64,000 bases of DNA from assembly GCF_009363715.1 (NCBI RefSeq), contig NZ_CP045404.1, positions 3,688,001 to 3,752,000 on the forward strand, in the 5' to 3' direction. The position numbers and the translations under genes are program-made. This stretch comes from Roseovarius sp. THAF9 (GTDB lineage Bacteria; Pseudomonadota; Alphaproteobacteria; Rhodobacterales; Rhodobacteraceae). Under the pieces are notes generated by a model. The model worked only from the letters and a program-made list of their open reading frames with translations, searched no databases and was not told where the DNA came from. This document shows positions 26,326 to 44,329 of the stretch, piece after piece (the first letter of the stretch is position 1; every line of letters begins with the position of its first letter).

Positions 26326-28499
26326 GTGCGTTTGACACTTTCGCCGTTGTTGATTGGTCGGCCAGATCCGGTCCTTCGCGCAAGCGCCCCTCGCAAGATG
26401 CAATCTGGCTGGGGATTTCGCGCCAAGGGCAGCTTGCCGAGCCACTCTATTTTTGGACCCGAGCCAAGGCCGAGGAACATCTTGCTTGTATGGTAAAGGA
26501 AGAAGCTGCCGCTGGTCGGCGAATGCTACTCACATTTGATTTCCCGTTCGGCTACCCGCTTGGATTTGCGAAGGCTCTGACCGGCGAAGATGATCCGTTT
26601 GCCGTGTGGGATTGGATCGCAGAACGCATTGAGGACAAACAGGACACTGAAAGGTCAAACAACCGCTTCGAAGTCGCAGAAGAAATGAACCGCAAGTTCT
26701 CAGGGCTCGGCCCTTTCTGGGGTAAATCCCACGAGGATCGTTGGCCTGACCTGCCCTATCGGAAGGCTGGAATTTCCTACGATACAATCCCGGAGAAGCG
26801 TGAATGCGATAAAGTCGCGCGCACCGCCTCCAGTTGCTTTCAGTTGTTCTACAACCCAACTGTCGGCTCTCAGGTGCTGATGGGCCTTCCAATGTTGAAT
26901 CGCCTGCGCACCCTGCCCGGCGTGGCAGTCTGGCCTTTTGAAGAACATGATGCCGCCAATGTCGTGCTTGCTGAAATCTGGCCCGGACTGATCGAGGACG
27001 CCATTCGAGAAGACACCGGCGGCGTCATCCGCGACGCTTTGCAAGTCACACGGCTTGCACTGGCGCTTTCCCGGCTCGACCCGGCCCGTCTTGAGCACCT
27101 GTTGAAAGACCTTCCGTATCAGGCGCGCGAAGAGGCATGGATCCTCGGCGCAGGCGCGACGAAAGATTTGACAGAACTAGCACGCGGGGAAATATCGGTT
27201 GTCATACCGGCAAGGCCCAACCAACGTGTCGCAGGCAACAATGAGCCTCTCGCGCCCCCACCCCTGCGCGACGACTGCTTCGCGCTGCCTGCCGGCGTGG
27301 ACTGGACCCCGGTGGACGATGCCCTCGCCATGCTGCAGGACAGGCTTCACCCGGTCGTTGCGACCCAAACCCTGCCGCTCGACCGCGCACTTGGCCGCAC
27401 CCTTGCCGCCGATGTCACCGCTAAACGGGCCAATCCCCCCCATGCCAACACCGCCGTCGACGGCTACGGCTTTGCTCATGCCAGCCTGACGGAAGGCGAC
27501 CAGACCCTGCCGCTGACGCCCGGCCGCGCCGCCGCGGGCAAGGCCTTCGAGGGGGCCGTGCCTCACGGCCATGCCATCCGCATCCTCACCGGCGCCGCCC
27601 TGCCACAGGGCGTCGACACCGTGATCCTGCAAGAGGACGTCACCGCCAGCGACACCGCCATCGCCTTTCACCCCGGCATCAAACCCGGCGCCAACACCCG
27701 CAAGGCGGGCGAAGACGTCTCGGCCGGCGATACGATCCTGTCGAAGGGCCGCAAGCTCACCCCCACCGACCTCGCGCTCCTGTCCGCCACCGGCAACACA
27801 GACCTCACCGTCCACGCCCCCCTGCGCGTCGCGGTCCTGTCCACCGGTGACGAACTGGTCGAACCGGGCGCATCCGCGGCACCCGGCCAGATTTTCGACG
27901 CCAACCGCCCAATGCTTCTCGGCCTGACCGAACGCTTCGGCTTCACGCCCATAGACCTCGGCCGCGTCCCCGACAACCGCGAGACCCTCCGCGCCACGCT
28001 CGACAGGGGCGCGGCAAAGGCCGACGTCATCCTGACGTCCGGCGGTGCCTCCTCGGGCGACGAAGACCATGTCTCGGCCCTGCTGAACGAGACCGGCGCC
28101 ATGTCCCAATGGCGCATCGCAGTCAAACCGGGCCGTCCGCTCGCGCTCGGGCTCTGGAAGGGCACACCCGTCTTCGGCCTCCCAGGAAATCCGGTCGCCG
28201 CACTTGTCTGCACGCTCGTCTTCGCCCGCCCCGCTATGGGACTTCTGTCGGGTCAGGGCTGGCACCGCCCGCAGAGCTTCACTCTGCCCGCGGCCTTCTC
28301 GAAATCCAAGAAGCCCGGCCGCCGTGAATACCTCCGCGCCAGGGTTACCGACGGACAGGCCGAGGTCTTCAAATCCGAAGGCTCCGGGCGCATCAGCGGC
28401 CTCAGCTGGGCCGAAGGGTTGGTCGAACTTCCCGACCACGCGGTCACGATCTCGCCCGGCGACCCGGTCTCCTACATCCCCTTCGCCAGCTTTCTCTGA
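26322..28499 (+). CDS. moeA: MoeA molybdotransferase fused to an N-terminal DUF429/RNase H-like domain
   Basis: 725 aa with a GTG start overlapping mobB (GTGA). Residues ~320-725 are a complete MoeA: NTAVDGYGF, TGDELVEPG, DANRPML, TSGGASSGDEDHV, VKPGRPLALG and FGLPGNPVAALV. MoeA inserts molybdate into adenylylated molybdopterin. Residues 1-~315 are an added domain with AVVDWSARSG near the start and LTFDFPFGYPLGFA at ~65-80. The early Asp-Trp-Ser and the Asp-Phe-Pro-hydrophobic-Gly pattern resemble DUF429/RNase H-fold proteins. The added part is visibly poorer in G+C (28 of 60 bases from 26641) than the MoeA part (41 of 60 from 27841). Confidence 0.92.
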   Translation: MSAFDTFAVVDWSARSGPSRKRPSQDAIWLGISRQGQLAEPLYFWTRAKAEEHLACMVKEEAAAGRRMLLTFDFPFGYPLGFAKALTGEDDPFAVWDWIAERIEDKQDTERSNNRFEVAEEMNRKFSGLGPFWGKSHEDRWPDLPYRKAGISYDTIPEKRECDKVARTASSCFQLFYNPTVGSQVLMGLPMLNRLRTLPGVAVWPFEEHDAANVVLAEIWPGLIEDAIREDTGGVIRDALQVTRLALALSRLDPARLEHLLKDLPYQAREEAWILGAGATKDLTELARGEISVVIPARPNQRVAGNNEPLAPPPLRDDCFALPAGVDWTPVDDALAMLQDRLHPVVATQTLPLDRALGRTLAADVTAKRANPPHANTAVDGYGFAHASLTEGDQTLPLTPGRAAAGKAFEGAVPHGHAIRILTGAALPQGVDTVILQEDVTASDTAIAFHPGIKPGANTRKAGEDVSAGDTILSKGRKLTPTDLALLSATGNTDLTVHAPLRVAVLSTGDELVEPGASAAPGQIFDANRPMLLGLTERFGFTPIDLGRVPDNRETLRATLDRGAAKADVILTSGGASSGDEDHVSALLNETGAMSQWRIAVKPGRPLALGLWKGTPVFGLPGNPVAALVCTLVFARPAMGLLSGQGWHRPQSFTLPAAFSKSKKPGRREYLRARVTDGQAEVFKSEGSGRISGLSWAEGLVELPDHAVTISPGDPVSYIPFASFL

Positions 28500-30589: not shown

Positions 30590-31171
30590 TCAGCGCAACC
30601 CGTCCTCTCCGGTCACCTCGTCCACCGTCAACCCGCCCATCCGGTCATGGATACGCCCGCCGCGGCTCATGGCCAGCACGAACAACAGCTCATCGGCCCG
30701 TGGCCCGTCGGGCAGGCCCACTTCCATGCCGTCGAAATGACTGCGCACATAGGCGGCATTGATATGGCCCAGCGGCACGTCGATCCGGGCACCCGGCCCG
30801 CCCTGCTTCATCGACGAAGGCACGATCGCCTTGGCCTCGCCCAGCCGCGCGCGCATCGCGTAACCGCCGGGCACGTGCCAGAGCGCCGTATGCTCCAGCT
30901 CCCCGGCCTCACCCGCCATGGCGGCCTTGCCATAGCCGTCGATGCCCCCGATACCGCCCATCGCCTCGATCAGCCGGTCTGTCATCATCAGACCCAGCGG
31001 CTTCAGATCCTCCATCGCCGACTGCAGATCCTCGGCGTAGCTGCCCGCAAACGGGTTTTTGACCAAAGCCGACATCGCGGCGCGGCGGCGGGGCAGCTTC
31101 GCCGCCGGCCCGCCGTCATGGTGGATCTCCTCGACGAACAGCGCAGTCTTGCGCAGGGTGAATTCAGGCAT
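30590..31171 (-). CDS. DUF1185 (amino acid synthesis family) protein
   Basis: 193 aa. Matches the DUF1185 pattern as I know it: RKTALFVEEIHHDGGP at the N-terminus, AAMSALVKNPFAGSYAEDL, EDLKPLGLMMTDRLIEAMGG, GYGKAAMAGEAGELEHTALWHVPGG and PSSMKQGGPGARIDVPLGHINAAYVRSHFD. The family name amino acid synthesis is an old label without a proven reaction. It is the last gene of the ten-gene operon and overlaps the UPF0280 gene by 8 bases. The conserved Glu/His segment ELEHTALWH and the SSMKQGG loop suggest an enzyme, not a structural protein, but this is inference. Confidence 0.85.
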   Translation of the reverse strand: MPEFTLRKTALFVEEIHHDGGPAAKLPRRRAAMSALVKNPFAGSYAEDLQSAMEDLKPLGLMMTDRLIEAMGGIGGIDGYGKAAMAGEAGELEHTALWHVPGGYAMRARLGEAKAIVPSSMKQGGPGARIDVPLGHINAAYVRSHFDGMEVGLPDGPRADELLFVLAMSRGGRIHDRMGGLTVDEVTGEDGLR

Positions 31172-32006
31172 GTTCAGAGTCCTTTTCTTCGATCATGACA
31201 GTCTCGCCAACGGTCACGACAGCGCCCCGCAGGCTCAGGCAGGCGGCCTGAATGATACTGCGTGCGACCAGTCTCGCGGCATAGGAGCGCCCAGCCTCCA
31301 ACGCCGCCGCGATCTCGCAAGCGGTCAGCGTGCCGACCTCTTGCGTCACCGCGCGCGCGCCAAGATCACTGTCGGGGGACACCTCACAGGCCGGAACGCG
31401 GACAATCTCCGGATGCCCCGGCAGGTCCACGGCATTGGCGATCATCGTCGCGGCGGCATCCGCCGTTGCCGCACTTTGCGCCAGCACCGTCACCGCATCC
31501 GCGATGCCCAGAGAATGGCTGCGCCCGCCTGCGCCCGAGGTTGCCACGCCACGCACCGGATCGCCTGCCCGCAACATGACAGTACCCGGAACCGGGCTTG
31601 CGATAGCCGCCGTCATTTTCTCACACGGCGCGATGTGAAACGCCACGTCCCCGCCGTTGTTGACAAATGCCTTGGACACGTCCGGCCCGTCCAGAATGGC
31701 GGCCAGGATCGTCTCCGCTCCTGCACCCGCCACCGCCGCCATCGGCGTGACAAACTCGGGCGCAAAGGGTCGGACTGCCTCGACCATGCGCCGTGCCGTC
31801 TCTCCTTCGACGGCCCCGCCACCGGGTCTGCGCAAGCGCGGCAACTCCGCCACCAATTCATCCATCAACGTTCCGAACCGCGCCACCGCTCTATTAAACG
31901 CCGCATCGCGTCCCGCGCCCTCGATGCCCACGATCATGTCGATTGGCCCGTGATGCATGTGCAGCCTTTGCCCGTCCGGCAACCAGCTCGCCTGCGCGAC
32001 CGACAT
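31164..32006 (-). CDS. UPF0280 family protein (ApbE-like fold)
   Basis: 280 aa from the ATG at 32006, which overlaps the upstream stop (TGATG); a GTG three bases earlier is an alternative. UPF0280 features: LHMHHGPIDMIVGIEG, FVTPMAAVAGAGAETILAA, KAFVNNGGDVAFHI and GVATSGAGGRSHSLGIADAVTVLA. The NNGGDVA and GRSHSLG-ADAVTV segments resemble ApbE (FAD:protein FMN transferase), where they bind flavin and metal, so a flavin-related role is possible. No biochemical function is established for UPF0280. It sits between the reductase-like gene and DUF1185. Confidence 0.85.
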   Translation of the reverse strand: MSVAQASWLPDGQRLHMHHGPIDMIVGIEGAGRDAAFNRAVARFGTLMDELVAELPRLRRPGGGAVEGETARRMVEAVRPFAPEFVTPMAAVAGAGAETILAAILDGPDVSKAFVNNGGDVAFHIAPCEKMTAAIASPVPGTVMLRAGDPVRGVATSGAGGRSHSLGIADAVTVLAQSAATADAAATMIANAVDLPGHPEIVRVPACEVSPDSDLGARAVTQEVGTLTACEIAAALEAGRSYAARLVARSIIQAACLSLRGAVVTVGETVMIEEKDSEHA

Positions 32007-33445
32007 CACTCGCCCTCCACGAAACGCACTGCGCTGCCGTAGTCGCCGCCATGTTCCAGGATATCGCTCACCGTCCGCACAGAAGCGTCATGCCCGCCCA
32101 GCGCTCGGTAATCCTCGCGGCTGAGCGTGAACTCCAGCGGCGCCACCAGGGCCGGGGTCGGCACATGCCCAAACGACCCCTCTGGCATCGCCAACACGTC
32201 CACCATCAGGGTGATTCCACCCCCGGGCCAAACAAACGCCGGCGCCCCTCCACAGGTCACCCGCGTCTTCAGCGCCTGCACCGACCGGGTCAGCTGCACC
32301 GGGTTCTGCGTCACGCCCGACCGCAGCGACCCGCCCGCGCCCGCCTGGAACATCACCGTGCACAGCGCCGGCTCGCAATTTTCGGCGATCAGGTCCGCGG
32401 ATGGCCGCAAGGCCTCCGGCAACGCCGCCTCTCGCGGCTGCAGATCGTCATCCAACACATAGTACCCGTGATGCTCGCCCGTGGTGCTGACCATCAACAG
32501 GGTCAGCCCCGGTCTCGCGCCCTTCTTCTCCAACCACGGGTTCAAAATCGCCAACGGATCGTCCAGGTCCGTCCCGCCCCAGCCCTGCCCCGGCTCGGCC
32601 ACCTTGAAATACCGCCCCGGCGTCGACCGGCGTCCCTTGATCCGTATCCCCGTATCGGGCCAGCCCAGCACTTTCCCAGCCTGATGTTCGCTGACGACGC
32701 CGGTGATATGGTCGTCCACCACCACCACCTCGTCCACCAGCCCGCGCCACTGGCTTGCGAACATCCCGATCGTGGCCGAGCCGCAGCCCACGCGCATCCG
32801 TTCCTCGCGCTGGCCGTTGACCACGGGCGCCTGCCCCGCCTGTACCACCACGGTCGCGCCGTCGTCGATCTCCAACTCCACCGCCTCACGGTTGCACAGC
32901 CGCAGCAACGCATCGCAGGTCGCACGCCCCTCGGGTTTGCCGCCCCCGGTCAGATGATCCACCCCGCCCAAAGACAACATCTGCGAGCCATATTCGGACG
33001 TGGTCACATGCCCCACCGCCTCGCCATTGCTGCGCACGGTCGCGGTCTCGTGCCCGAGGTGCCGGTCGGTGTCGATCTTCACTTTCACACCGCAATAGGA
33101 ATAGATCGCCTCGGTCACCACGGTGACGAAATCCGCGCCCTTGACGTCGCGGCTCACGATGAACGGCGCTGGCTTGTAATCGGGATAGGTCGTGCCCGCC
33201 CCCACGCCGCTGACGAACACCTCCTCGCCGCCCAATATCTCGCCATCCCATTCGGGTCCAAGGAATGGCTTCACCGCATCGCCCTTCGCCACCCTACGGT
33301 CAAGTATGGTCAGAGGATCGCACCGCACGATCCGGCCATCCTCGTTGGCATAGCGATCACACGCCCCGATCTTGCCCGGCGCGATATAGCACATCACCGG
33401 ACACGCATCGCAGCGGATCTTCTCCTCGCGCCCGCGCTCAGCCAT
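32006..33445 (-). CDS. 6-hydroxynicotinate reductase-like Fe-S protein
   Basis: 479 aa. The N-terminus has four closely spaced Cys (C12, C15, C19, C29 in RCDACPVMCYIAPGKIGACD), a plausible iron-sulfur cluster site. Beyond this the protein resembles what is annotated as 6-hydroxynicotinate reductase after the Eubacterium barkeri enzyme, with GTTYPDYKPAPFIV, YGSQMLSLGGVDHLTGG and GGAPAFVWPGGGITLMVD. The E. barkeri enzyme reduces 6-hydroxynicotinate after a xanthine-dehydrogenase-family nicotinate hydroxylase acts. Here the upstream, overlapping gene is also a hydroxylase of that family. The later enzymes of nicotinate fermentation are not present in the window, so the substrate is open. Confidence 0.78.
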   Translation of the reverse strand: MAERGREEKIRCDACPVMCYIAPGKIGACDRYANEDGRIVRCDPLTILDRRVAKGDAVKPFLGPEWDGEILGGEEVFVSGVGAGTTYPDYKPAPFIVSRDVKGADFVTVVTEAIYSYCGVKVKIDTDRHLGHETATVRSNGEAVGHVTTSEYGSQMLSLGGVDHLTGGGKPEGRATCDALLRLCNREAVELEIDDGATVVVQAGQAPVVNGQREERMRVGCGSATIGMFASQWRGLVDEVVVVDDHITGVVSEHQAGKVLGWPDTGIRIKGRRSTPGRYFKVAEPGQGWGGTDLDDPLAILNPWLEKKGARPGLTLLMVSTTGEHHGYYVLDDDLQPREAALPEALRPSADLIAENCEPALCTVMFQAGAGGSLRSGVTQNPVQLTRSVQALKTRVTCGGAPAFVWPGGGITLMVDVLAMPEGSFGHVPTPALVAPLEFTLSREDYRALGGHDASVRTVSDILEHGGDYGSAVRFVEGE

Positions 33446-36128
33446 TTCCGGCCTCGCGGATCGCCGCCAGCACCCGGTGCGGCAACGCCGGCAGGCGCGT
33501 CACCAGCGCCCCGGTGGCATCCCGGATCGCGTTCAATATCGCGGGGGCGGTCGGGATCAGCACATGCTCCCCCAGCCCTTTCGCCCCCATCGGCCCTTCC
33601 GGGTCCGGCACCTCCAGAAAGATCGTCTCGATTTCCGGCATATCGCCCGTCGTGGGGATCAGGTAATCATGCAGGTTCTCTGTCCGCCCGGGAATGAATT
33701 CCTCCATCAACGCCAGTCCCAACCCCTGCGCGATACCGCCCTCGACCTGCCCTTCGGCCAGTTGCGGGTTGATCACCCGGCCCAGATCATGCGCCGCGGT
33801 AATCTTGAGCACCTTCACCGTGCCAAGGCCCATGTCCACCGACAGTTCCACCAGTTGCGCGCCATAGCCATAGACGGCATAAGGAACACCCTGCCCGTCC
33901 TCGTCCAAGGGTTGCGTCGGCGGATCATAGCTTTCCTCGGCGCACAGGACATACCCATGCGCTTGCTCGGAAAGCGCTGCCAGATCAATCGCTTGCTCCC
34001 GCGCGCCATCGCTCACGCGCAAAATCGAGCCCTCAAGATGCAGAACCGCGTCCGGCCCCATGTTCGTCTGCTTCAGGATCAGCGCCCGCAGCGCCTGCCC
34101 GGCCCTCAATGCCGCGCTTCCGGTCACATAGGTCTGGCGCGACCCGGACGTTTTCCCGCAATCCGGCGTCAGCGCGGTATCCGCCCCGATGATCTGCATC
34201 TGCGCCAGCGGCAACCCCAACGCATCCGCCGCGATCTGCGGGATCACCGTGTTCGATCCCTGCCCGATATCAACCGCCCCCTGGTGCAAGCACAGATGCC
34301 CATCTGACGTCAGCCCGATCCGAATGGTCGACGGATTGGCAATCGCCGTATTCCCGCAGCCATACCAGCAGGACGCGATGCCAACCCCATGCCGGACACT
34401 CCCGCCCCCCGCATTGGCCCGCTCGGCCCGTTCCAGCGCATCGGTCCAAGGTCCTTCCAGCACCTCCAGGCAAGCCGCGATCCCCACACCATGAAGCGTC
34501 TGACCAAACACCGTCTCCTGCCCGTCGCGCAGCGCGTTCAGCTTGCGAAAGGCCAGCCGGTCGATGCCCAACTTGCCCGCCAGATCATCGAACAGCGTCT
34601 CCTGCATGATCGCCGCCTGCGGCACACCGAACCCCCTGAACGCGCCGGAGATCGGCTCGTAGGTGTAATTCGCCCGCGCCTCGGCGTGGTAGTTCGGGAT
34701 GAAGTACGGCCCCGACGCGTGGACAGGCACGCGCCCTGCCACGGTCGGCCCCCAGCTTGCATACGCTCCCGTATTGAAATCTCCATCGAACTCCATCGCC
34801 ACGATCCGCCCGTCGGCGTCGGCGCCAAGGGTGCAACGCATGTCGGACGGGTGCCGCTTGGTGGTCGCAGCCATGCTCTCGGCCCGGCTATAGACCATCC
34901 GCGCTGGTTGACCGGTTTTCAACGCCACCAGCCCGACCAACGGCTGCAAAGACACATCCAGCTTAGATCCGAACCCCCCGCCCGTGGCCGCCGGAATGTT
35001 CCGCACGGCCTCCGGCGGCAGGCCCAGCACGGCCGCGGTATCGTCGCGATCCATGACGGGCGCCTGCGTGCAGGCCCGGATCACCAGCGTCTCACCCTCC
35101 ATCCATGCGACACCGGCCTCGGGTTCGATATAGGCGTGCTCGACATATCCCGTCTGCATCGCGCCACTGACGGTAAAGGCGGCGTCCTGCATCGCTTGTC
35201 GCGCCGCGCCGCGCCGGACCTTGCCGGCGATCAACAGGTTTTGGGGATGCGCGTCATGCACGGGCCGGTCCGCCGGGTCCTCGCGCCACGTGATCGGAAA
35301 GTCCGACAGGTCCAGCGCCTCGACCACCGCAGGTTCACCGGCAACCAGCGCCACCGCTTCGCCCGCCAGACGTGCGCGGTCCTCCGCCAGCGCCGGCTGG
35401 TCGCGAAAGGCGGGAATCACGCCAAAGCGGTTGGTCCCGGCGATATCCTGCGCGGTGAACACCTGCACGCCCCGCGCTGCGGCCCAGTCCGCGATCTCTC
35501 CGAACTGAAAGGATACGGGTGCGTATGGCGCACGTACCGCCCGCACCAGCAAAGCACGATCCGGCACGTGATCCGCGCCATAGGCCTCGGTCCCATCCAC
35601 CTTCGCGGCACCGTCCAATCTTGCGACGGCCGCGCCTACGGCCTCTCCGGCGTCGGGCATCCTCGCCACGTCGCCGGGGGCGGCATCCAGCACCGCGTCG
35701 ATGATCTTGGTGTACCCGGTGCACCGGCACAGCACGCCCCCCAAGGCCTCCTCGACCTCGGAGCGCGTTGGCTCCGGCGTGTCGCGCAGTAACGCCTCCG
35801 CCGTCATCACCATGCCGGGCGTGCAGATCCCGCATTGCGCCGCCCCATGCCGCAGAAAGGCCTGCTGCAAAGGCGTGTGCGCCTGCCCCTCGATCGTCTC
35901 AACTTTGCGCCCTGCCGCCTGGCCCAGCGGCGTCATGCAGGCACAGACCGGCGCGCCGTCCAGCAACACGGTGCAGGCCCCGCAATCGCCCGCGTCACAA
36001 CCCACCTTCGTGCCGCGCAGGCGAAGGCCGTCGCGCAGGACCTCCGACAAGCGTCGTGCCGGATCGGCGGGCAGCACGTGGCGCTGCCCGTTGACCGTCA
36101 GAGTGCAGGTGTCCAACGGACGGTTCAC
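33438..36128 (-). CDS. Xanthine dehydrogenase family Mo-hydroxylase, fused 2Fe-2S and Mo-binding subunits
   Basis: 896 aa with a GTG start at 36128 that overlaps the upstream stop (GTGA). Residues ~1-155 are a two-cluster 2Fe-2S subunit: C44, C49, C52 and C64 (GCDAGDCGACTV) and the second cluster in AAQCGICTPGMVM and VLCRCTGYTKI. The rest is the large molybdopterin-binding subunit with GYVEHAYIEPEAGVAW, ATGGGFGSKLDVSLQP, EPISGAFRGFGVPQ and QGAVDIGQGSNTVI. The catalytic Glu lies in MGAKGLGEH (about E854). Normally these parts are separate genes. Members hydroxylate purines, nicotinate and other N-heterocycles or aldehydes; the substrate is not readable here. Confidence 0.93.
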   Translation of the reverse strand: MNRPLDTCTLTVNGQRHVLPADPARRLSEVLRDGLRLRGTKVGCDAGDCGACTVLLDGAPVCACMTPLGQAAGRKVETIEGQAHTPLQQAFLRHGAAQCGICTPGMVMTAEALLRDTPEPTRSEVEEALGGVLCRCTGYTKIIDAVLDAAPGDVARMPDAGEAVGAAVARLDGAAKVDGTEAYGADHVPDRALLVRAVRAPYAPVSFQFGEIADWAAARGVQVFTAQDIAGTNRFGVIPAFRDQPALAEDRARLAGEAVALVAGEPAVVEALDLSDFPITWREDPADRPVHDAHPQNLLIAGKVRRGAARQAMQDAAFTVSGAMQTGYVEHAYIEPEAGVAWMEGETLVIRACTQAPVMDRDDTAAVLGLPPEAVRNIPAATGGGFGSKLDVSLQPLVGLVALKTGQPARMVYSRAESMAATTKRHPSDMRCTLGADADGRIVAMEFDGDFNTGAYASWGPTVAGRVPVHASGPYFIPNYHAEARANYTYEPISGAFRGFGVPQAAIMQETLFDDLAGKLGIDRLAFRKLNALRDGQETVFGQTLHGVGIAACLEVLEGPWTDALERAERANAGGGSVRHGVGIASCWYGCGNTAIANPSTIRIGLTSDGHLCLHQGAVDIGQGSNTVIPQIAADALGLPLAQMQIIGADTALTPDCGKTSGSRQTYVTGSAALRAGQALRALILKQTNMGPDAVLHLEGSILRVSDGAREQAIDLAALSEQAHGYVLCAEESYDPPTQPLDEDGQGVPYAVYGYGAQLVELSVDMGLGTVKVLKITAAHDLGRVINPQLAEGQVEGGIAQGLGLALMEEFIPGRTENLHDYLIPTTGDMPEIETIFLEVPDPEGPMGAKGLGEHVLIPTAPAILNAIRDATGALVTRLPALPHRVLAAIREAGNG

Positions 36129-36988
36129 GACCCACCCTCTGCACCGACCGCATCCGTCACCGCCCGGCGCAAAAGCTCCGTCGCCGCGTGCCCGCGATAG
36201 CCGGCCGTCGCCCGGATGTCGTCCAGCGGCGACAAGACTGCGCAAACCACATCCTCGGAAATCGCATCCGCCAGCGTATGGTCTGCCGCAAGTCCTGTCA
36301 GCGCAGCCTCCACCTGTGGCAATCGCGTGGCCACGGCACTACACGCACCCACGGCCACCGCGGCGTCGCCGACGCGCCCGTCTTCCACCACCAGACGCAC
36401 AGCGACCATGGCGATGGAAATCACCAGATAGCGCCGCGCGCCGAGTTTGAGAAACCGCGACCGTCCCTCCAGCGCCGATCGCGGCACGTGAACACTTGTC
36501 ACGATCTCGCCGGGGTTAAGCGCCGTGCGGCGTGGCCCGACAATGAAATCCTCCAGCGGCAATCTCCGCACCCCATGCGCCGAGGCCAGTTCCACCTCTG
36601 CATCGAGCGCCAGCAGGCACGGCACCCCGTCCGCCGCGGGCGAGGCGTTGCACAGATTGCCCGCGATCGTTCCCGCGTTCTGTATCTGAATCGAGCCGAC
36701 CTCCCGCGCCGCCTGTTTCAGCATGTCGCAAGCCGGTGGCAGCTCCGCTTTCAAGATATCTGTCCATGTCGTCGCCGCCCCGATGCGCAACCCGGCATCG
36801 GTCAAGGCGACCCCGCGCAAACCGGCCAGCCCGGTGATATCCACCACCGGACCCTGCAAGGCCCGCGCGTCCGTCGCCGGAAAGAGGTCGGTACAGCCTG
36901 CCGCCACGCGCCCGCCTGTCTCCGCCAGCAGCGCCAGCGCGTCGTCCAGGGTTTCGGGCCGTGTGTATCCGGTCACGCCGCTCTCCAT
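36125..36988 (-). CDS. FAD-binding subunit of the xanthine dehydrogenase family hydroxylase
   Basis: 287 aa, the medium (FAD) subunit. FAD-contact motifs are VAAGCTDLFP (the AGGTD-like loop) and GSIQIQNAGTIAGNLCNASPAAD. The CO dehydrogenase flavoprotein C-terminal domain follows (residues ~170-280). Together with the fused 2Fe-2S/Mo gene it gives a full electron path from Mo through Fe-S to FAD. It is separated from livF by 121 bp containing a strong hairpin. Confidence 0.93.
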   Translation of the reverse strand: MESGVTGYTRPETLDDALALLAETGGRVAAGCTDLFPATDARALQGPVVDITGLAGLRGVALTDAGLRIGAATTWTDILKAELPPACDMLKQAAREVGSIQIQNAGTIAGNLCNASPAADGVPCLLALDAEVELASAHGVRRLPLEDFIVGPRRTALNPGEIVTSVHVPRSALEGRSRFLKLGARRYLVISIAMVAVRLVVEDGRVGDAAVAVGACSAVATRLPQVEAALTGLAADHTLADAISEDVVCAVLSPLDDIRATAGYRGHAATELLRRAVTDAVGAEGGS

Positions 36989-37038
36989 GTCGGGGTGCGC
37001 TTATCGTGCGACGCCATGTTTCACCCTGTCAACTCAAA

Positions 37039-37081
37039 GCGTTTTGCCTTTGACTTGAGGCATCAGCAAAAGGCGAAACGC
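37039..37081 (-). promoter_or_regulatory. Hairpin between livF and the hydroxylase FAD gene
   Basis: GCGTTTTGCCTTT (37039-37051) pairs with AAAGGCGAAACGC (37069-37081) over 13 positions with one wobble. It is the only large gap inside the ten-gene run. It could reduce read-through or set a processing site, giving different levels of transporter and enzyme mRNA. Confidence 0.5.
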
Positions 37082-37109
37082 GCGCAACGATTGAATGTTG
37101 CGCCGCGTT

Positions 37110-37808
37110 TCACACTCCCACGTAGCGGTCCACGATCGAGTGATCCTGCCGCAGCGCCTCCGCGCTCAGCACCTCGCCGTTGCGTCCGTTCTCGATAAAC
37201 GCCACCCTGTCTGCCACCGACAGAACCGCATCCACCCGCTGCTCGACCAGCAATATCGCCACGCCCTGCGCGCGCATCTTGACGATCACTTGCCGGATCG
37301 CCTCGATCATCGAGGGTTGTAGCCCCTCGGTCGGCTCATCGAGCAGCAGCGCTTTGGGCTGGATACACAACGCCCGCGCCGTGGCCAGCATCTGCTGCTC
37401 TCCGCCCGAAAGGGTCTGCGCCGGCTGGTCCATCCGCTCGCGCAGACGCGGGAACAGATCCAGCACCTCTTCCAGAACGTCCTTGCCCGCGCCGCGCACC
37501 TGCAACCCAATCTCGAGGTTCTGCGCCACGCTGAGGCCCGCAAACAGCCGCCGCCCCTGCGGGATATAGCCAATCCCCGCGCGCGGCACCTCGTGCGCGG
37601 GCAGGCTGCCAACATCCTGCCCGTCCAGCGTGATCCGCCCCGACATCAGCGGCAGCAGACCCATGATCGTCTGCATCGTGGTGGTCTTGCCCGCCCCGTT
37701 TCGGCCCAGCAGGCACAGGATCTCTCCCGCCTCGACCCGCAGCGACAGGTCGCGCAGCACTTGCGCCGCGCCATAGCCCGAGTTGACCCCCTGCAATTCC
37801 AGCATCAT
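37110..37808 (-). CDS. livF: Branched-chain-type ABC transporter ATPase (LivF-like)
   Basis: 232 aa. Walker A GRNGAGKTTTM, LivF-type GIGYIPQGRRLFAGLSVAQNL, signature LSGGEQQM, Walker B ALLLDEPTEGLQP and VEQRVDAVL. Overlaps livG by 4 bases (ATGA). It is one of two ATPases of the importer encoded with the Mo-hydroxylase genes. The name refers to the family; the substrate need not be a branched-chain amino acid. Confidence 0.93.
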   Translation of the reverse strand: MMLELQGVNSGYGAAQVLRDLSLRVEAGEILCLLGRNGAGKTTTMQTIMGLLPLMSGRITLDGQDVGSLPAHEVPRAGIGYIPQGRRLFAGLSVAQNLEIGLQVRGAGKDVLEEVLDLFPRLRERMDQPAQTLSGGEQQMLATARALCIQPKALLLDEPTEGLQPSMIEAIRQVIVKMRAQGVAILLVEQRVDAVLSVADRVAFIENGRNGEVLSAEALRQDHSIVDRYVGV

Positions 37809-38509
37809 CCGGTCCCCAGATAGGCCGCCTGCACGTCGGCATTCTCGTGGATCTGCTGCGGCGTCCCCTCGGCCAGCATCTCTCCGAAGTTCAGCACGCT
37901 CACCATGTCTGCGGTCTCCATCACCACCTTCATGTTGTGCTCGATCAGCAGGATCGTCGTCTCGCCCGCCAAATCCCGGATCAACGCCTTGAACGCGTCG
38001 ATCTCGCCTTCCGACAGACCCTGCGTCGGCTCGTCCAAGATCAGCAGCCGCGGCGCCTGCACCAACCCCATCGCGATCTCCAGCAGGCGTTGATGCCCAT
38101 AGCTGAGGTTCCCCGCCTCCTCGTCCGCCTGCCCCTCCAGGCCGACACGGCCTAGCGCCTCCGCCGCAGCGTCACCCACCGCGCGGCCCTGCAACCGCCG
38201 CCTAGCGGCCAGCGCCACGTTCTCCTGCACCGGCAGACGCGGAAAGATCGAGGTGATCTGGAATGTATAGGCCATCCCCTTCAGGATGCGCTTGTGTGCC
38301 GGCAACCGCGTGATGTCTTCACCGTCGAACGTCACCGTCCCAGAGGTCGGCGGAATACGCCCGCAGATCATCCCCACCAGCGTCGTCTTGCCCGCCCCGT
38401 TGGGGCCTATCAAGGCCCGCACCTCGCCTTGCGGCAAATCGAAATCCACGCCGGTCACCGCCTGCAACCCGTCGAACGACTTGGACAGCCCCCGCACCTT
38501 CAGCAGCAT
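37805..38509 (-). CDS. livG: Branched-chain-type ABC transporter ATPase (LivG-like)
   Basis: 234 aa from the ATG at 38509, which overlaps the livM stop (TGATG); the open frame continues upstream in a non-coding register. Walker A GPNGAGKTTLVGMI, the LivG-type GMAYTFQITSIFPRLPVQEN, signature LSYGHQRLLEIAM, Walker B LLILDEPTQGLSEGE and LIEHNMKVVM. The signature LSYG replaces LSGG, as in many LivG proteins. Confidence 0.93.
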   Translation of the reverse strand: MLLKVRGLSKSFDGLQAVTGVDFDLPQGEVRALIGPNGAGKTTLVGMICGRIPPTSGTVTFDGEDITRLPAHKRILKGMAYTFQITSIFPRLPVQENVALAARRRLQGRAVGDAAAEALGRVGLEGQADEEAGNLSYGHQRLLEIAMGLVQAPRLLILDEPTQGLSEGEIDAFKALIRDLAGETTILLIEHNMKVVMETADMVSVLNFGEMLAEGTPQQIHENADVQAAYLGTG

Positions 38510-39453
38510 CACGGCAACCCTTTCCACAGCCGTCGCCGCACTTCCCCGGTCAGGCCCTGCGGCGCGAACAACGTCAGCGCCACCAGCGCCACGCCCGCGA
38601 TCAGCATATAGGCCGAGGTCACGCCGGAGCTGAGGTCGATCAGGTAGAACATAAAGAGCGTGCCCACGAACGGCCCCAGCACCGTGCCCGCCCCGCCCAA
38701 CAGAACCCACAACAGCGGAAAGATCGAATACTGCACCGAGCCGAATGTCGCCCCGGCATAACCGAACAGCAGTCCATAGAACGCCCCCGCCGCGGCCGAG
38801 ATCGTGCCCGACACGACCATCGCCCCCAGCTTGTGCGCATAGGTGTCATACCCCAGCATCCGCACCCGCTCCTCGTTCTCGCGGATGGCAATCAGCGTCC
38901 GCCCGAACCGGCTCCGCACCAGCCACAGCGACATGAGGAAGCAGACCGAGAACAGCCCCCACGCCGCGAAATACCGCGCTGTCGGGTCGCTCAGGTCGAT
39001 CCCCCACAGCACCCTCTGCGCCTGCTGAATGACGAACCCCTCGTCGCCCCGCGTGTACTCCCCGAAATACAGGATCGTCAGGTAGCCCGCCTGCGCGAAC
39101 ATCAGCGTCACGATCATGAACGCCACGCCCGCCGTGCGCAGCGCCAACAGCGCCAGCCCCCCGGCCACCAGCGCGCCCGCCACGATTCCCACGACCAACG
39201 CAGGCGCAGGCGTGAATCCGGCATGCTGGATGGTCAGCCCCATCCCGTACATGCCAGCCGCAAAGAACAGCGCATGCCCGAGGCTCAAAAGCCCCGTATA
39301 GCCAAAGAGGATGTTATATCCGACAGCGTAAGACGCCAGCACCATGATCCGCGCGATATTCCCGTGATGGTACGCCGGCAGCACGAATTGCAACGCGAAC
39401 AGGATTACCAGCAGCCCCAGATGCAGGCCCAGAACGCGCCCTCCCATGCTCAT
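38509..39453 (-). CDS. livM: Branched-chain-type ABC transporter permease (LivM-like)
   Basis: 314 aa from the ATG at 39453, overlapping the livH stop (ATGA). About eight to ten membrane helices; family segments are ASYAVGYNILFGYTGLLSLGH, GRTLIAIRENEERVRMLGYD (the EAA-like cytoplasmic loop) and GGAGTVLGPFVGTLFMF. The longer open frame upstream is the livH gene read in another frame. Confidence 0.93.
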   Translation of the reverse strand: MSMGGRVLGLHLGLLVILFALQFVLPAYHHGNIARIMVLASYAVGYNILFGYTGLLSLGHALFFAAGMYGMGLTIQHAGFTPAPALVVGIVAGALVAGGLALLALRTAGVAFMIVTLMFAQAGYLTILYFGEYTRGDEGFVIQQAQRVLWGIDLSDPTARYFAAWGLFSVCFLMSLWLVRSRFGRTLIAIRENEERVRMLGYDTYAHKLGAMVVSGTISAAAGAFYGLLFGYAGATFGSVQYSIFPLLWVLLGGAGTVLGPFVGTLFMFYLIDLSSGVTSAYMLIAGVALVALTLFAPQGLTGEVRRRLWKGLP

Positions 39454-40376
39454 GCCGTCCGCGTCCCGAACAGGCCCTGGGGTCTGAACACCAGCACCAA
39501 CCCCACCAGCAGCGTCGCCAAAATCTTCGCCAGCGTCGGCGAGAAGAAGACCGAGATGATCCCGTCGCTCAACCCGATGAACAGCGCCGCCAACACCGTG
39601 CCCGGCAGGCTCCCCAGCCCCCCGATGATCACCACGATGAAGGCCAGCAGCAGCGGCTCGACCCCCATCAGGTAATGCGCCTGCTGGATCGGCACGATCA
39701 GCACCGCCCCCAGCGCCGCCAGCCCCGCGCCGATCCCGAACACCAGCGCATAGACCCGCTCCACCGGGATACCGAACGCCAGAGCCATGTCCCGATCCGC
39801 CTGCGTCGCCCGCATCAGCAGGCCAATCTTTGTCCGCGCCATCATCGCCCAGACGCCGCAAAGCACCGCGCCCGCGGCAAAGATCACGAACAGCTTGTAG
39901 GACGTGATGCTCCACCCCCAGGGCTGCGCCATGCCGAACAGCGTCTCGAACCAGTCGAACCATGGCAGCTCAACTCTTGTATTAAACGGCGCCTCCACGG
40001 GCCGCGCCTCGGGGCCATAGGTCATCAACGTCAATTGCTGGATGATATAGAGCAAGCCAATCGTCGCCACGATCGTCCGCTCGGGATCATACTCAATACG
40101 CTTGAGTATGGTCACATCCGCCGCCGCGGCAAGCGCCCCCACCACCAGAGGCGCGATCACAAGTGCTGCAACAAACCCCAGCGCCGGATGCCCGCCCACC
40201 ATCTGCGCCACGTACCAGGCGATGACCGCGCCCAGCATGTAGAACTCGCCATGCGCGATGTTCACCACCCGCATCACGCCGAAGACAAGGCTCAGCCCCA
40301 CGGCGGTCAGCGCCAGCACTGCCGCCGTCACCGCGCCTTCCAGCGTGGCGAGGATAAGATGAGGTCCGAACTCCAT
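39450..40376 (-). CDS. livH: Branched-chain-type ABC transporter permease (LivH-like)
   Basis: 308 aa polytopic permease. Family segments: GLSLVFGVMRVVNIAHGEFYMLGA, KIGLLMRATQADRDMALAFGI and VIIGGLGSLPGTVLAALFIG. It starts 35 bp after the substrate-binding protein gene. Together with LivM it forms the membrane channel of the importer. Confidence 0.94.
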   Translation of the reverse strand: MEFGPHLILATLEGAVTAAVLALTAVGLSLVFGVMRVVNIAHGEFYMLGAVIAWYVAQMVGGHPALGFVAALVIAPLVVGALAAAADVTILKRIEYDPERTIVATIGLLYIIQQLTLMTYGPEARPVEAPFNTRVELPWFDWFETLFGMAQPWGWSITSYKLFVIFAAGAVLCGVWAMMARTKIGLLMRATQADRDMALAFGIPVERVYALVFGIGAGLAALGAVLIVPIQQAHYLMGVEPLLLAFIVVIIGGLGSLPGTVLAALFIGLSDGIISVFFSPTLAKILATLLVGLVLVFRPQGLFGTRTA

Positions 40377-40411
40377 CAGGTCAGGTCACACACCTCACCC
40401 AACCGCCGAGA

Positions 40412-41698
40412 TCAAAGCGGCTGCGTGGTATAGTCCACCTCGTCGGGATAAAGCGTGTCGTCAATCGACGTCGTATGCACCCGCACAAGACGCCCGTTCT
40501 CGACCCGGCTGATATGCTGATGCCCGAACACCTGGTGCGTCTTGCCGTTGAACCGCTTGGCCCCCTGCGGATGCGCCTGGCTTTCGGGCATCTCGCCCAT
40601 TGCCTCGACCGCCTCGATAAGCGCGGGCCTGTCCTCCGGCCCGGCATAGCCCGACGCCTCCATCCCGGCCTTGATGACGTGCAGCGTCTCCCAGCAGCCG
40701 AACATATGCGCATAGGTCGACACGTCGCTCGGGTCGCTCACCGACGCGCCGTTCTCGTCCACGCCCACCGCCTCGCGATAGAACTTCTCGTGCTCGCTCT
40801 GATCCTCCTGCGCATAGCGCGGCATCCCTTCCCAGAAATATGTCCCTTCCAAAAACTCCAGGCCCGGGCTGGAAATATCCACCGCCTCCAGGCTGTCGAT
40901 AAAGCCGAAAATCTCCGGCCCCTGGTCGCCGAAGAACTCGCCCAGCTCCTTCACGAAGGTCAGCACGGCCGGACCCACCATCACGTGATACAGCACCTCG
41001 GTATCGCGCGGGATTTGCGGGAAATACTTGGTAAAGCTCGTCTCGCTCGGCGGAATGGCGATCTGCTCCAGCACCTCGCCCCCCTGTTCCTTGATCGCGG
41101 CGGAAAAGAAATCGCGGTGGTCGTGGCCGAATGCGAAATCGGGGAAAATCATCGTGACCTTCTTGCCAAGGTTCTCCGACACGTAAGGCGCCATCGCCTG
41201 CACCTGGCTCTTCACATCGGTGATGCCGGGTTGCAGCGTATAGCGGTTCAGCATTCCGCTCGCCACGTGATGCCCTTCCGACACCACGAAATAGGGCAGC
41301 TTCAACTCGCCTGCCCGCGGCGCGGACCCGATCACAACATGCGAAAACAGCGTGCCAAAGCCCACGTCACAGCCATGCTGGTTGGCGAACTTCTCCACCA
41401 CCTCGGCGCCACGCTTGGGGTCCGTGCCGTCGTCCTCGGCGATGATCTCGATCATCCGGCCATTGATGCCGCCGCCCTCGTTGATCAGCTTGACCGCCGC
41501 CTCGGTGGTGCGCCCGTACCAGCGGCCATAGGCGGCCCCGATGCCGGTGCTGTGCTGCTGAAACCCGATCTTGATCGGCTCCGCGCTTTGCGCCTGTGCA
41601 TACCGCGCCCAAAGCGGAAGGCTCGCCGCCCCCGCCGCTGCTCCGGCCAGTGTTTTCAACGCGCCCCGGCGCGAGGTGCCCTTGATCAGCTTGGTCAT
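40412..41698 (-). CDS. ABC transporter substrate-binding protein (Tat-exported, urea/amide-type)
   Basis: 428 aa from the ATG at 41698, preceded by GGGAGAG. The N-terminus MTKLIKGTSRRGALKTLAG has a twin-arginine motif (SRRGALK) followed by a hydrophobic stretch ending YAQAQ, so export is likely through the Tat system. The mature protein is a type I periplasmic binding protein: IKIGFQQHSTGIGAAYGRWYGRTTEAAVKLINEGGGINGR, typical of the Leu/Ile/Val and amide-binding group. It is first in the ten-gene operon and sets the specificity of the whole system. An open frame running upstream to 43267 is read-through of a non-coding frame. Confidence 0.92.
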   Translation of the reverse strand: MTKLIKGTSRRGALKTLAGAAAGAASLPLWARYAQAQSAEPIKIGFQQHSTGIGAAYGRWYGRTTEAAVKLINEGGGINGRMIEIIAEDDGTDPKRGAEVVEKFANQHGCDVGFGTLFSHVVIGSAPRAGELKLPYFVVSEGHHVASGMLNRYTLQPGITDVKSQVQAMAPYVSENLGKKVTMIFPDFAFGHDHRDFFSAAIKEQGGEVLEQIAIPPSETSFTKYFPQIPRDTEVLYHVMVGPAVLTFVKELGEFFGDQGPEIFGFIDSLEAVDISSPGLEFLEGTYFWEGMPRYAQEDQSEHEKFYREAVGVDENGASVSDPSDVSTYAHMFGCWETLHVIKAGMEASGYAGPEDRPALIEAVEAMGEMPESQAHPQGAKRFNGKTHQVFGHQHISRVENGRLVRVHTTSIDDTLYPDEVDYTTQPL

Positions 41699-41784: not shown

Positions 41785-43161
41785 TCAGCCGCGCGGCGAT
41801 GCCAGCAGCCAAAGCCCGAAAAAGGTATAGGCCACCATGAACACCGCCAGTGGTGCTTGCCCCAACACCGCCCGCCTCCGGTCGGCCCGGTCCCGCATGG
41901 CCAGCGCGTGCGCCATCAGAATCGCCACGACATGCCCCAACACCACGGCCCCGGCCTGGCTCAGCCAGATCCGCCGCACGGTATCCTGCGTATTGAAAAA
42001 CCCGGTGGTCACATAAAACCCGTCGAGGCCCAGCAGATGCGCGCCATTGGACAGCGGATCGTCCAGCATCTGCAACACGTACTGCACCTCCACAAGGAAC
42101 GTCGGCAGGTAATGCGCCACGTGGTAGCCCAGCGCGATTGGCAGGATCGACGGTGCGAAAAGACAGAACGCGGCACGCAAGCTCCGCCCCGTCCCGGCGA
42201 TCCGCTCCCCCAGCCAAAGGCAAGTCGCGAACACCGCCAAAAGCCCAAGATTCGCCACAGCCAGCCCGATCAGGTTCGGCACCACCACCGCCGACCGCCC
42301 GGGAAACTCCAGCGGGTTGACCCCGATCACCCCCATCCACCAGAAGGTCTCGTTCACCCCGTCGAAACTGCCCGTCCCCAGCAGCAGCACCATCAGAACG
42401 GCCAAAGCCAAGGGCGGCGCCCGCCGGATCACGCCCTGCCACCCCCACAGGCCCAGAGCCAGCCGCCCGCGCTCCGGGGCAAGCACCCCCATGCGCCCAT
42501 AGGCCCGCATCATCACCGTCACCATCTCGCCCCGCAGCAGGAACGCAGGCCCGAACAGCAGCACCCCGAACAGCACCGCGTACCAGTAAAGCCCCACGAC
42601 ACTGGCCAATCGCGCCGGATCCGCCGGCGCCGGGTCGCACAGCAGGAACGCCGCGAACGCCAGGAACAGCACGACCGCCGGCCAATACCCCCAGCCGCGC
42701 GGATACCGCATCAACGCCCGCATCCCCGTCCACCGGGCCAACACCGCGATCACCCCCGTCCACGGATTCGTCCAGCGCCAGTGATTGCCGACAACCCCCT
42801 GCAGGCTCACCAACGCCACCCACCACACCGTCCAGACCAAAAGCGGCATCGGGTTCTCCATCGGCGTGCGCGGCCCGGCAAAGCCCTGCCAAACCGCAAC
42901 CGCCAGCACCCCCGTCGCCAGCAGGCTCGTCCCATGCCGAAATGCCCAGCGCGGCCGCCGCACCAACGGCACCGGCGCAAACACCGCCTCCCCCGCCCGC
43001 GCAGGCAACACCGCCAGCAACAGCACCGTCAGGACGACACTCGCCACCCCCGCCAAGATGTAGACATCCGTCGGCAGCAACAGCACAAAGCCCTGCTCCG
43101 ACGCATGCGCCCATGCCATCCCGCCCCAGAACAGGACGAGGCAAACCAGCACCCCCCGCAT
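41785..43161 (-). CDS. Polytopic membrane protein of unknown function
   Basis: 458 aa with about twelve membrane helices. The ATG at 43161 follows AGAAGAAGAG; a GTG three bases upstream is an alternative. An N-terminal leader-like segment ends AWAHASEQGFVLLLPTDVY. Conserved-looking charged and aromatic motifs include GNHWRWTNPWTG, RYPRGWGYWPA, GYHVAHYLPTFLVE and NTQDTVRRIWL, with His/Trp clusters that could bind metal or a lipid head group. I do not recognise a family with confidence. It lies 86 bp upstream of the substrate-binding protein gene on the same strand and may belong to the same transcription unit. Confidence 0.82.
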   Translation of the reverse strand: MRGVLVCLVLFWGGMAWAHASEQGFVLLLPTDVYILAGVASVVLTVLLLAVLPARAGEAVFAPVPLVRRPRWAFRHGTSLLATGVLAVAVWQGFAGPRTPMENPMPLLVWTVWWVALVSLQGVVGNHWRWTNPWTGVIAVLARWTGMRALMRYPRGWGYWPAVVLFLAFAAFLLCDPAPADPARLASVVGLYWYAVLFGVLLFGPAFLLRGEMVTVMMRAYGRMGVLAPERGRLALGLWGWQGVIRRAPPLALAVLMVLLLGTGSFDGVNETFWWMGVIGVNPLEFPGRSAVVVPNLIGLAVANLGLLAVFATCLWLGERIAGTGRSLRAAFCLFAPSILPIALGYHVAHYLPTFLVEVQYVLQMLDDPLSNGAHLLGLDGFYVTTGFFNTQDTVRRIWLSQAGAVVLGHVVAILMAHALAMRDRADRRRAVLGQAPLAVFMVAYTFFGLWLLASPRG

Positions 43162-43172
43162 CACGATCTCTT

Positions 43173-43276: not shown

Positions 43277-44209
43277 TCACCCCGGGTCGCGGATCAGGCT
43301 CTGGCACATGCAATGCACGCCGCCACCCCCTTGGGTGATCATGCTCAGGTCCGGATCGTAAATCTCGAATCCCAACGCCCTCAGCTTCTCTTTCAGCGTT
43401 TTCGACCCTTCCGGCAACAGCACCCGGTCCTGCCCCAGCGCCACCACGTTGCACCCCAGCGCGATGGTCTCCTGGAACGGCACCTCGACGATCTCGATGT
43501 TCTTGGCGCGCAGCCAATCCACGATCTCGGGATCGGTGCAATCGGTGCAGACAGCCGCCAGCTTCGGCGCCAGCATCACCACCATCAGGTCGATATGCAC
43601 ATAGAAAGGGTCGATATCGGCCAGTTTCACTTCCCAGCCCTCGGCCTCCATCCACGACGCCACCTGGCGCGCGCCCTCATGCATCGACCGGCCTTCTTCG
43701 CCTTCCCAGCCGATCAGAACACACCCCGGCTCGATCACGTTGAAATCGCCCCCCTCGAAGGTGCCCGCCGTGACGAAATCGTAAATCGGAATGCCAAGGC
43801 CCTGATAGGTCTCGATCGCCCGGAAATTCTCGCCCCGGCGCCAGTGTTGCGACATATGCGTGATGATCGCGCCATATGGCGTCATCACCGAACTGTCCCG
43901 TGCATAAACCTGGTAGGGCAGTTCCGGATCCGGCACATGGGTATGCACCTCGACGCCCGCGCTTTCATAGGCGCTCACCATCTCGGCATGCTGCTTTTTG
44001 GCAATAACAGGGTCGAACTCCACGCCCCGCCGCAACGTCTTCTTGCTCACGGACGATGTCTTCAGCCAGCGGTAATTCTCGACCGGCCCCAGCAGGACCG
44101 ACCGCAACGTGCCATAGTCGCTATCCGCACCCCAGTCGTTCAGCTTGGGCGTGCCCCCGACCTCGCGCCGCGCGCGCAGGGTAAAGATGTCAGCCGGTTG
44201 ATCTTTCAT
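43277..44209 (-). CDS. Arginine deiminase / amidinotransferase superfamily enzyme
   Basis: 310 aa from the ATG at 44209; the frame extends upstream without support. Superfamily motifs in order: PYQVYARDSSVM, TFEGGDFNVI (Glu-Asp pair), VHIDLMVVML (catalytic His) and the C-terminal nucleophile Cys in GGGGVHCMCQSL. Relatives include dimethylarginine dimethylaminohydrolase, agmatine deiminase and amidinotransferases, which act on guanidino compounds. The exact substrate is undetermined. It is on the same strand as the importer operon but separated by the membrane protein gene and a hairpin-rich repeat. Confidence 0.85.
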   Translation of the reverse strand: MKDQPADIFTLRARREVGGTPKLNDWGADSDYGTLRSVLLGPVENYRWLKTSSVSKKTLRRGVEFDPVIAKKQHAEMVSAYESAGVEVHTHVPDPELPYQVYARDSSVMTPYGAIITHMSQHWRRGENFRAIETYQGLGIPIYDFVTAGTFEGGDFNVIEPGCVLIGWEGEEGRSMHEGARQVASWMEAEGWEVKLADIDPFYVHIDLMVVMLAPKLAAVCTDCTDPEIVDWLRAKNIEIVEVPFQETIALGCNVVALGQDRVLLPEGSKTLKEKLRALGFEIYDPDLSMITQGGGGVHCMCQSLIRDPG

Positions 44210-44329
44210 GACGGGTCTCCTTTGCGCGAAAGGCTGAGCCGATGCCGCGCCCAAGTCAAGCGCGACCGCGCCACCGCCGCAGTGGCCATTGTCGATTGCG
44301 CAAATTGAAGCCGCCACAGCCGTGGAACC

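Follow-up and report, generated by a model that had tools for sequence, protein, structure and literature searches.

In this study, we have explored an operon in a 64,000-nucleotide stretch of the marine bacterium Roseovarius sp. THAF9 (contig NZ_CP045404.1, positions 3,688,001 to 3,752,000; hereafter the window), which combines an ATP-binding cassette (ABC) importer with a molybdenum hydroxylase, a protein of the 6-hydroxynicotinate reductase (Hnr) family, and members of the families UPF0280 and DUF1185. The genome holding the window comprises 4.56 Mb, with a completeness rating of 99.96%. Ten complete open reading frames run on the minus strand from 41698 to 30590, with no internal stops (family matches with E-values or bit scores in parentheses):

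40412..41698, minus: substrate-binding protein of a Liv/Urt-type ABC importer, with a twin-arginine signal (Peripla_BP_6, 1.9e-45)
39450..40376, minus: LivH/UrtB-type permease (BPD_transp_2, 5.9e-37)
38509..39453, minus, start at 39453: LivM/UrtC-type permease (BPD_transp_2, 1.2e-34)
37805..38509, minus: LivG/UrtD-type ATPase (ABC_tran, 1.1e-34; UrtD, 217 bits, under the cut-off)
37110..37808, minus: LivF/UrtE-type ATPase (ABC_tran, 1e-31)
36125..36988, minus: flavin adenine dinucleotide (FAD) subunit, CutM type, of the molybdenum hydroxylase (FAD_binding_5, 8.9e-45; CO_deh_flav_C, 6.3e-15)
33438..36128, minus: fused [2Fe-2S] and molybdopterin subunit of the hydroxylase, for which we use the shorthand MOFUS (Fer2 and Fer2_2, MoCoBD_1, MoCoBD_2)
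32006..33445, minus: Hnr family protein (names and identity of relatives; conserved cysteines)
31164..32009, minus: UPF0280/COG2122 protein, ApbE fold, proposed Hnr maturation factor (NF003322, 332 bits, cut-off 290)
30590..31171, minus: DUF1185/AA_synth protein, subfamily a (PF06684, 1.1e-65, 221 bits, cut-off 27)

Seven of the nine junctions are overlaps of 1-8 bp: LivH-LivM (4 bp), LivM-LivG (1), LivG-LivF (4), CutM-MOFUS (4, MOFUS starting with GTG), MOFUS-Hnr (8), Hnr-UPF0280 (4) and UPF0280-DUF1185 (8). The remaining two are gaps of 35 bp, between binding protein and LivH, and 121 bp, between LivF and CutM. The ten-gene minus-strand operon of the preliminary description was thus borne out, with its coordinates unchanged.

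Based on the gene content, the lack of an enamidase, the co-occurrence and mutual exclusion of genes across genomes, the folds and the conserved catalytic residues, all of which were seen directly, we infer the reactions, the substrate and the maturase role set out here. We consider it likely that the operon serves a reductive type of nicotinate (vitamin B3) catabolism in which HyuAB opens the ring. The importer would bring nicotinate or nicotinamide into the cell, the fused molybdenum hydroxylase and its FAD subunit would make 6-hydroxynicotinate, and Hnr would reduce this to 1,4,5,6-tetrahydro-6-oxonicotinate (THON). The THON lactam would be opened by the ATP-dependent HyuAB, of the oxoprolinase/caprolactamase family, rather than by an enamidase, and ammonia and 2-formylglutarate would follow. 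UPF0280 may mature Hnr or load its flavin, and the DUF1185 protein may work on the ring-opened product or close to it in the route.

The preliminary description had noted that the hydroxylase and reductase mirror the first two steps of nicotinate breakdown, and our comparisons support this. The nearest database relatives of the window Hnr (94-96% identity), where named, are called 6-hydroxynicotinate reductase and come from Roseovarius. The protein is also 69-71% identical to the Hnr of six phylum-sample loci, all from one genus (L034, L035, L036, L038, L039, L040), where NicA/NicB-type genes take the place of MOFUS beside Hnr, UPF0280, DUF1185 and a Liv importer; on that comparison the reductase of a reductive nicotinate cluster is present in the window. 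The NicA- and NicB-type genes of these loci are 57-61% and 56-58% identical to an annotated Neorhizobium pair; an enamidase lies in reach in L035, L036 and L038, with a nicotinate phosphoribosyltransferase instead in L034, L039 and L040. In another class of the phylum, one locus (L043) gave NicA-type, enamidase and nicotinamidase-like matches. At family level only, the FAD and fused Fe-S/Mo subunits match the molybdenum nicotinate hydroxylase of such a cluster, and we propose from their sequences that they form a nicotinate 6-hydroxylase. Hnr itself matched no Pfam family above the cut-off, and seven of its cysteines (C12, C15, C19, C29, C118, C221, C357) are conserved in 60 sequences. Its structure model has a predicted local distance difference test score of 82.6. 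At the limits used, comparison with solved structures gave no relative of Hnr, and no fold was matched clearly; the sole partial resemblance was to a T-protein-like barrel, at residues 118-206. We also observed that the Hnr gene of one locus (L044 9225-11655, genome G016) is split between two frames that join close to residue 237, through either a frameshift or an error in sequencing.

A near set was formed from the best 80 of 589 Hnr relatives, as named loci and with a bias to near kin. Here UPF0280 stands in 78 loci, including all 59 whose flanks reach 5 kb or more on either side, DUF1185 in 67 and the fused hydroxylase in 77; HyuB occurs in 18 and a ferredoxin-NADP reductase in 15, and enamidase and NicAB in none of the 80. 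A nicotinamidase-like gene adjoins 31 of these loci (28 of the 59 with full flanks), and the single one that was scored exceeds the curated threshold of NF008623 (216.5, cut-off 174). Besides Mesorhizobium, the loci with this gene include Nitratireductor, Aminobacter, Chelativorans, Pararhizobium, Notoacmeibacter, Limibaculum, a Rhodobiaceae metagenome-assembled genome and a SAR116 genome. Plasmids vary the theme further. There are 26 annotated plasmid records with Hnr, five of which were opened: Hnr neighbours are the fused hydroxylase with HyuAB in Fuscovulum and Pseudosulfitobacter, the fused hydroxylase with an enamidase in Sulfitobacter, NicAB with HyuAB in Neorhizobium, and a two-gene molybdenum enzyme with an enamidase in Comamonadaceae. 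None of the five holds both openers within the stretch. The enamidases of L037 and L047 were checked against 2vun; with the L037 protein, those of L047 and L050 share 74% and 67% identity. Since the neighbours around one reductase are interchangeable, these loci point to a single pathway, namely nicotinate breakdown.

The Eubacterium barkeri system, after work by Alhapel from 2006, is said to be anaerobic and to hold separate hydroxylase subunits, an enamidase and the later fermentation enzymes in one cluster. The order of hydroxylation and then reduction to THON is what it shares with the route proposed here, going by the accessible parts of PMC3511419 and PMC9304392. A closer parallel comes from PMC3511419, in which clusters of this type, comprising an ABC transporter and a pair of conserved proteins of unknown function, are assigned to nicotinate in Azorhizobium and Bradyrhizobium; for A. 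caulinodans, the same source refers to nicotinate breakdown via THON on older references. The two unknown proteins are probably UPF0280 and DUF1185, an assignment of our own by position, because the six NicAB loci, which resemble that cluster, hold both. On this assignment the window has the importer and both conserved unknowns, and it shares hydroxylase, Hnr, importer and unknowns with the cluster of Azorhizobium caulinodans, Bradyrhizobium and strain SG-6C (PMC3511419, in part). It differs in having a fused hydroxylase with an FAD subunit, no enamidase anywhere in the genome, and a ring opening assigned to an unlinked HyuAB.

To place these genes in a broader frame, 289 genomes of Alphaproteobacteria, the class of the window, were searched with every query. 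Hnr gave 47 matches, of which G344, G365 and G463 (20-24-bit N-terminal pieces) were dropped, leaving 44; UPF0280 gave 48, of which G386, G395, G406 and G428 (≤30 bits) were dropped, also leaving 44; DUF1185 gave 57, 56 of them above the cut-off. Enamidase matched 21 genomes at E≤1e-60, and the 18 with at least 68% identity were counted, G351, G391 and G481 having only paralogues of 39-42%. HyuB matched 40 genomes at E≤1e-150, of which 29 were counted as the Hnr clade (at least 63% identity within Hnr genomes). The co-occurrence that the preliminary description had named as its check was found: UPF0280 is present in 44/44 Hnr genomes and 0/245 others, exactly the same 44 genomes (Fisher p 4e-53, uncorrected for relatedness), and DUF1185 in 39/44 and 17/245.

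Its statement that the enamidase is missing also proved correct, both at the locus and genome-wide: no orthologue of the 2vun family was found in either, the best match being 24 bits over 71 residues. Among the 44 Hnr genomes, 17 have only an enamidase and 27 only a HyuB orthologue; none has both and none has neither. Outside these, an enamidase occurs in one genome without Hnr (G369), in a frame with a stop. G510, an enamidase genome, has a HyuB at 45% that falls outside the clade, and G391, a HyuB genome, has an amidohydrolase at 42%. On an Hnr tree built from the 44 genomes plus 5 plasmids (49 rows), the opener states need nine changes, six of them forced by well-supported branches; a single ancient split therefore does not account for the exclusion. 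MOFUS adjoins Hnr with either opener (16/17 enamidase loci and 23/26 enamidase-free loci). Of the 26 enamidase-free loci fetched, 16 have HyuA or HyuB inside the Hnr locus; the enamidase is inside it in 11 of the 17 enamidase loci. Many of the fetched loci are cut off by a contig edge.

In the Roseovarius genome, the missing ring-opening step would most simply be filled by a HyuAB pair encoded elsewhere. Its HyuA and HyuB are 69% and 76% identical to the Fuscovulum pair sited in an Hnr operon. The two genes are adjacent (C1:241662-245368), and their neighbours are genes that we did not see in any Hnr cluster. The pair shares a contig with the operon, at a distance of about 3.5 Mb, or about 0.6 Mb should that contig be circular. 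In a HyuB tree, which holds 24 of the 29 clade-counted proteins (G016, G482, G464, G555 and G420, of 65-68% identity, were thinned out or not fully in the stretch), this HyuB falls inside the clade of Hnr genomes (support 100/98), and a second HyuB of the same genome falls outside, on a long branch. Aligned to chains B and A of 6yra (CapAB), the HyuB keeps D41, H99, D102 and H124 of CapB, and the HyuA keeps D11 and D295 of CapA. Mutants of these residues were inactive or strongly reduced, according to the accessible text of PMC8453981, and a related oxoprolinase pair, OplAB, hydrolyzes delta-valerolactam in an ATP-dependent manner (PMC11033972, in part). Our pair thus shares with the CapAB and OplAB lactamases the HyuA/HyuB architecture, the four metal ligands and the two ATP-site aspartates, and differs as a separate clade tied to Hnr with THON as its proposed substrate. 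We rejected the possibility that it is caprolactamase itself, because it scores 500 bits (CapA) and 303 bits (CapB) against NCBIfam equivalog cut-offs of 1000.

Several observations weigh against nicotinate catabolism with HyuAB as the opener. The limits for enamidase and HyuB were chosen after the hits were seen, and the split between them partly follows families. The Hnr-clade HyuB also occurs in two genomes without Hnr (G496, 62%; G399, 60%), a stop interrupts the frame of one enamidase (G553) and of one HyuB (G556) among those counted, and the Roseovarius HyuAB is unlinked to the operon, with bit scores far under the caprolactamase equivalog cut-offs. By title, 21 of the 31 near-set loci with a nicotinamidase-like gene are Mesorhizobium, and in the even class sample such a gene lies near Hnr in only one of 43 loci. 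Neither a MOFUS- nor a NicAB-type hydroxylase was found at the limits used in L093, L097 and L115, which are Hnr loci with HyuAB in reach, or in L235, L251, L253 and L254 of the class sample.

The operon could instead degrade another N-heterocycle, its hydroxylase acting on a different pyridine or amide, Hnr reducing the product, and UPF0280 and DUF1185 performing new steps; the hydroxylase is unlike NicAB in being fused and having an FAD subunit, the enamidase is missing, the nicotinamidase-like neighbour is rare beyond the near set, and nicotinate is a substrate predicted from sequence. We regard this as improbable, given that the Hnr is so close to that of the NicAB loci, that MOFUS stands beside it in all but one of the 17 enamidase genomes, that the nicotinamidase-like gene recurs in the near set, and that UPF0280 and DUF1185 accompany the enamidase too. 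The compound, called unidentified in the preliminary description, would instead be nicotinate, for which this cluster type has already been described in the part of PMC3511419 cited above. The further suggestion that UPF0280 and DUF1185 are the missing steps did not survive the genome comparison: UPF0280 occurs in 17/17 enamidase-bearing and 27/27 enamidase-free Hnr genomes, and DUF1185 in 17/17 and 22/27. As both also occur with the enamidase, we conclude that they are accessories rather than substitutes for it. The same numbers bear on a variant in which nicotinate is the substrate and DUF1185, or another unlinked amidohydrolase, opens the ring of enamidase-free genomes while HyuAB serves another lactam. 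The distance of HyuAB from the operon would suit this, as would the hydrolases or enamidase-like amidohydrolases that DUF1185 adjoins in other loci. However, five of the 27 enamidase-free genomes (G139, G464, G475, G512, G556) have no DUF1185, all 17 enamidase genomes have one, and HyuA or HyuB so often lies inside the Hnr locus that we give this variant little credence as well.

The role of UPF0280 is a separate matter. Its predicted structure is ApbE-like, a flavin transferase fold, and an hhalign comparison with ApbE gave 94.1% and an E-value of 2.3e-8. The ATSG and ADxxAT motifs, which we take to be those of ApbE with their presumed roles, are aligned in UPF0280, where columns 156-159 and 183, 184, 187 and 188 are invariant or nearly so. 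From this fold, the co-occurrence with the reductase in the same 44 genomes and the lack of a PF02424 protein in the genome of the window, we tentatively suggest that UPF0280 matures Hnr or loads its flavin, though we put this at somewhat less than an even chance. The Hnr of E. barkeri carries a covalent flavin. With the ApbE/Ftp flavin mononucleotide transferases UPF0280 shares the fold over about 210 residues and both motifs; it differs in lacking a conserved catalytic histidine and in occurring only with Hnr in our sample. The position aligned with what is presumably the ApbE catalytic histidine, column 165, is F in 31, H in 24 and L in 13 of 75 sequences. Hnr showed no clear Thr/Ser motif for flavinylation, and in the best acceptor candidate, GSAT, T225 is replaced by Ala in 8 of 60 Hnr sequences; the acceptor may be some other residue. 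One near locus (L062) has other genes at the expected place of UPF0280 after Hnr (the other near-set miss, L094, holds a piece of UPF0280 at the contig end). Close to an even chance, in our estimate, is that UPF0280 is another kind of Hnr accessory, such as a flavin-binding subunit, an FAD hydrolase or an Fe-S/persulfide factor. The loss of the histidine fits this, as does COG2122, which, in the accessible text of PMC5764234, is required together with DUF39 in homocysteine synthesis, is only distantly related to ApbE, and has been given a persulfide role by others. The fold, the aligned motifs and the covalent flavin of E. barkeri Hnr speak against it.

The DUF1185 protein has solved relatives in 3byq and 2qtp, hexameric in solution with a chorismate-mutase-like fold (PMC2954203, in part). 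A quick tree, with 71 of 144 rows left after thinning, placed it in group a, formed by copies of Hnr loci. Group b, also from Hnr loci and mostly with an enamidase, gives the best DUF1185 match in 13 of the 17 loci with an enamidase and in one of the 27 with HyuB (window counted); it is also present in two of three HyuAB plasmid loci (L048, L049). Further groups comprise copies in luciferase-like-monooxygenase clusters and copies adjoining proteins 39-41% identical to enamidase, the latter in L292 (8168-10002) and L293 (8549-10373), from genomes without Hnr, and L294 (7984-9831), from a genome with Hnr. The second DUF1185 of the Roseovarius genome (L025 5135-10866, C1) lies in a cluster with a luciferase-like monooxygenase, a flavin reductase and an alpha/beta hydrolase, all scored; by eye from sequence starts, an aldehyde dehydrogenase and a LysR protein are also there, giving a trigonelline-like appearance, and about seven loci resemble it by eye (L296, L298-L302, L304). 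In the trigonelline pathway the ring is cleaved by a monooxygenase. Because the nicotinate and trigonelline pathways would both pass through alpha-formyl diacids, our guess is that DUF1185 acts on such products. The trigonelline (tgn) cluster thus resembles the window in placing a DUF1185 relative in a pyridine-carboxylate pathway, TgnF being called homologous to a DUF1185-type protein in the accessible part of PMC7913881, and differs in that the DUF1185 of comparable clusters falls in another clade.

At the head of the operon, the binding protein carries SRRGALK, which we take to be the twin-arginine motif, and has a relative of at least 55% identity in 46 of the 80 near loci; we propose that it binds nicotinate or nicotinamide. 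Upstream lies one more gene:

41785..43164, minus: 459-amino-acid protein, no assigned family (upstream of the binding protein; relative in 27 of the 80 named Hnr loci)

Searches of Pfam and NCBIfam, at the limits used, placed this protein in no family. It is a probable member of the operon, overlooked in the preliminary description, and probably works with the importer. Just beyond it, a protein like dimethylarginine dimethylaminohydrolase/arginine deiminase (43277-44317, minus) has a close relative in 2 of the 80 loci. On the other side, 2-5 kb from the operon and on the opposite strand, genes for a MobA-like protein, MobB and a MoeA with an extra N-terminal domain (25178-28499, plus) place molybdenum cofactor genes near the molybdenum hydroxylase operon.

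In conclusion, what looked like an unknown pathway becomes a known one in which a defined step is missing, and for that step we put forward a testable enzyme, an ATP-using lactamase that we propose replaces the enamidase in 27 of the 44 sampled Hnr genomes. As far as the literature was searched, both HyuAB as substitute opener and UPF0280 as maturase would be new. UPF0280/COG2122, a widespread family lacking an assigned reaction, would gain a specific client. The bolder combined proposal, which we hold to be rather unlikely, is that, in a variant of vitamin B3 breakdown among aerobic bacteria, HyuAB has been exchanged with the enamidase many times and that UPF0280 is an ApbE-fold maturase dedicated to Hnr, a flavo-iron-sulfur reductase of orphan fold. 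If true, the same maturase logic may account for why homocysteine synthesis needs COG2122 alongside DUF39, and DUF1185 of subfamilies a and b may process the formyl-diacid product. Our reading of the operon predicts that many marine Roseobacters and rhizobia would consume vitamin B3.

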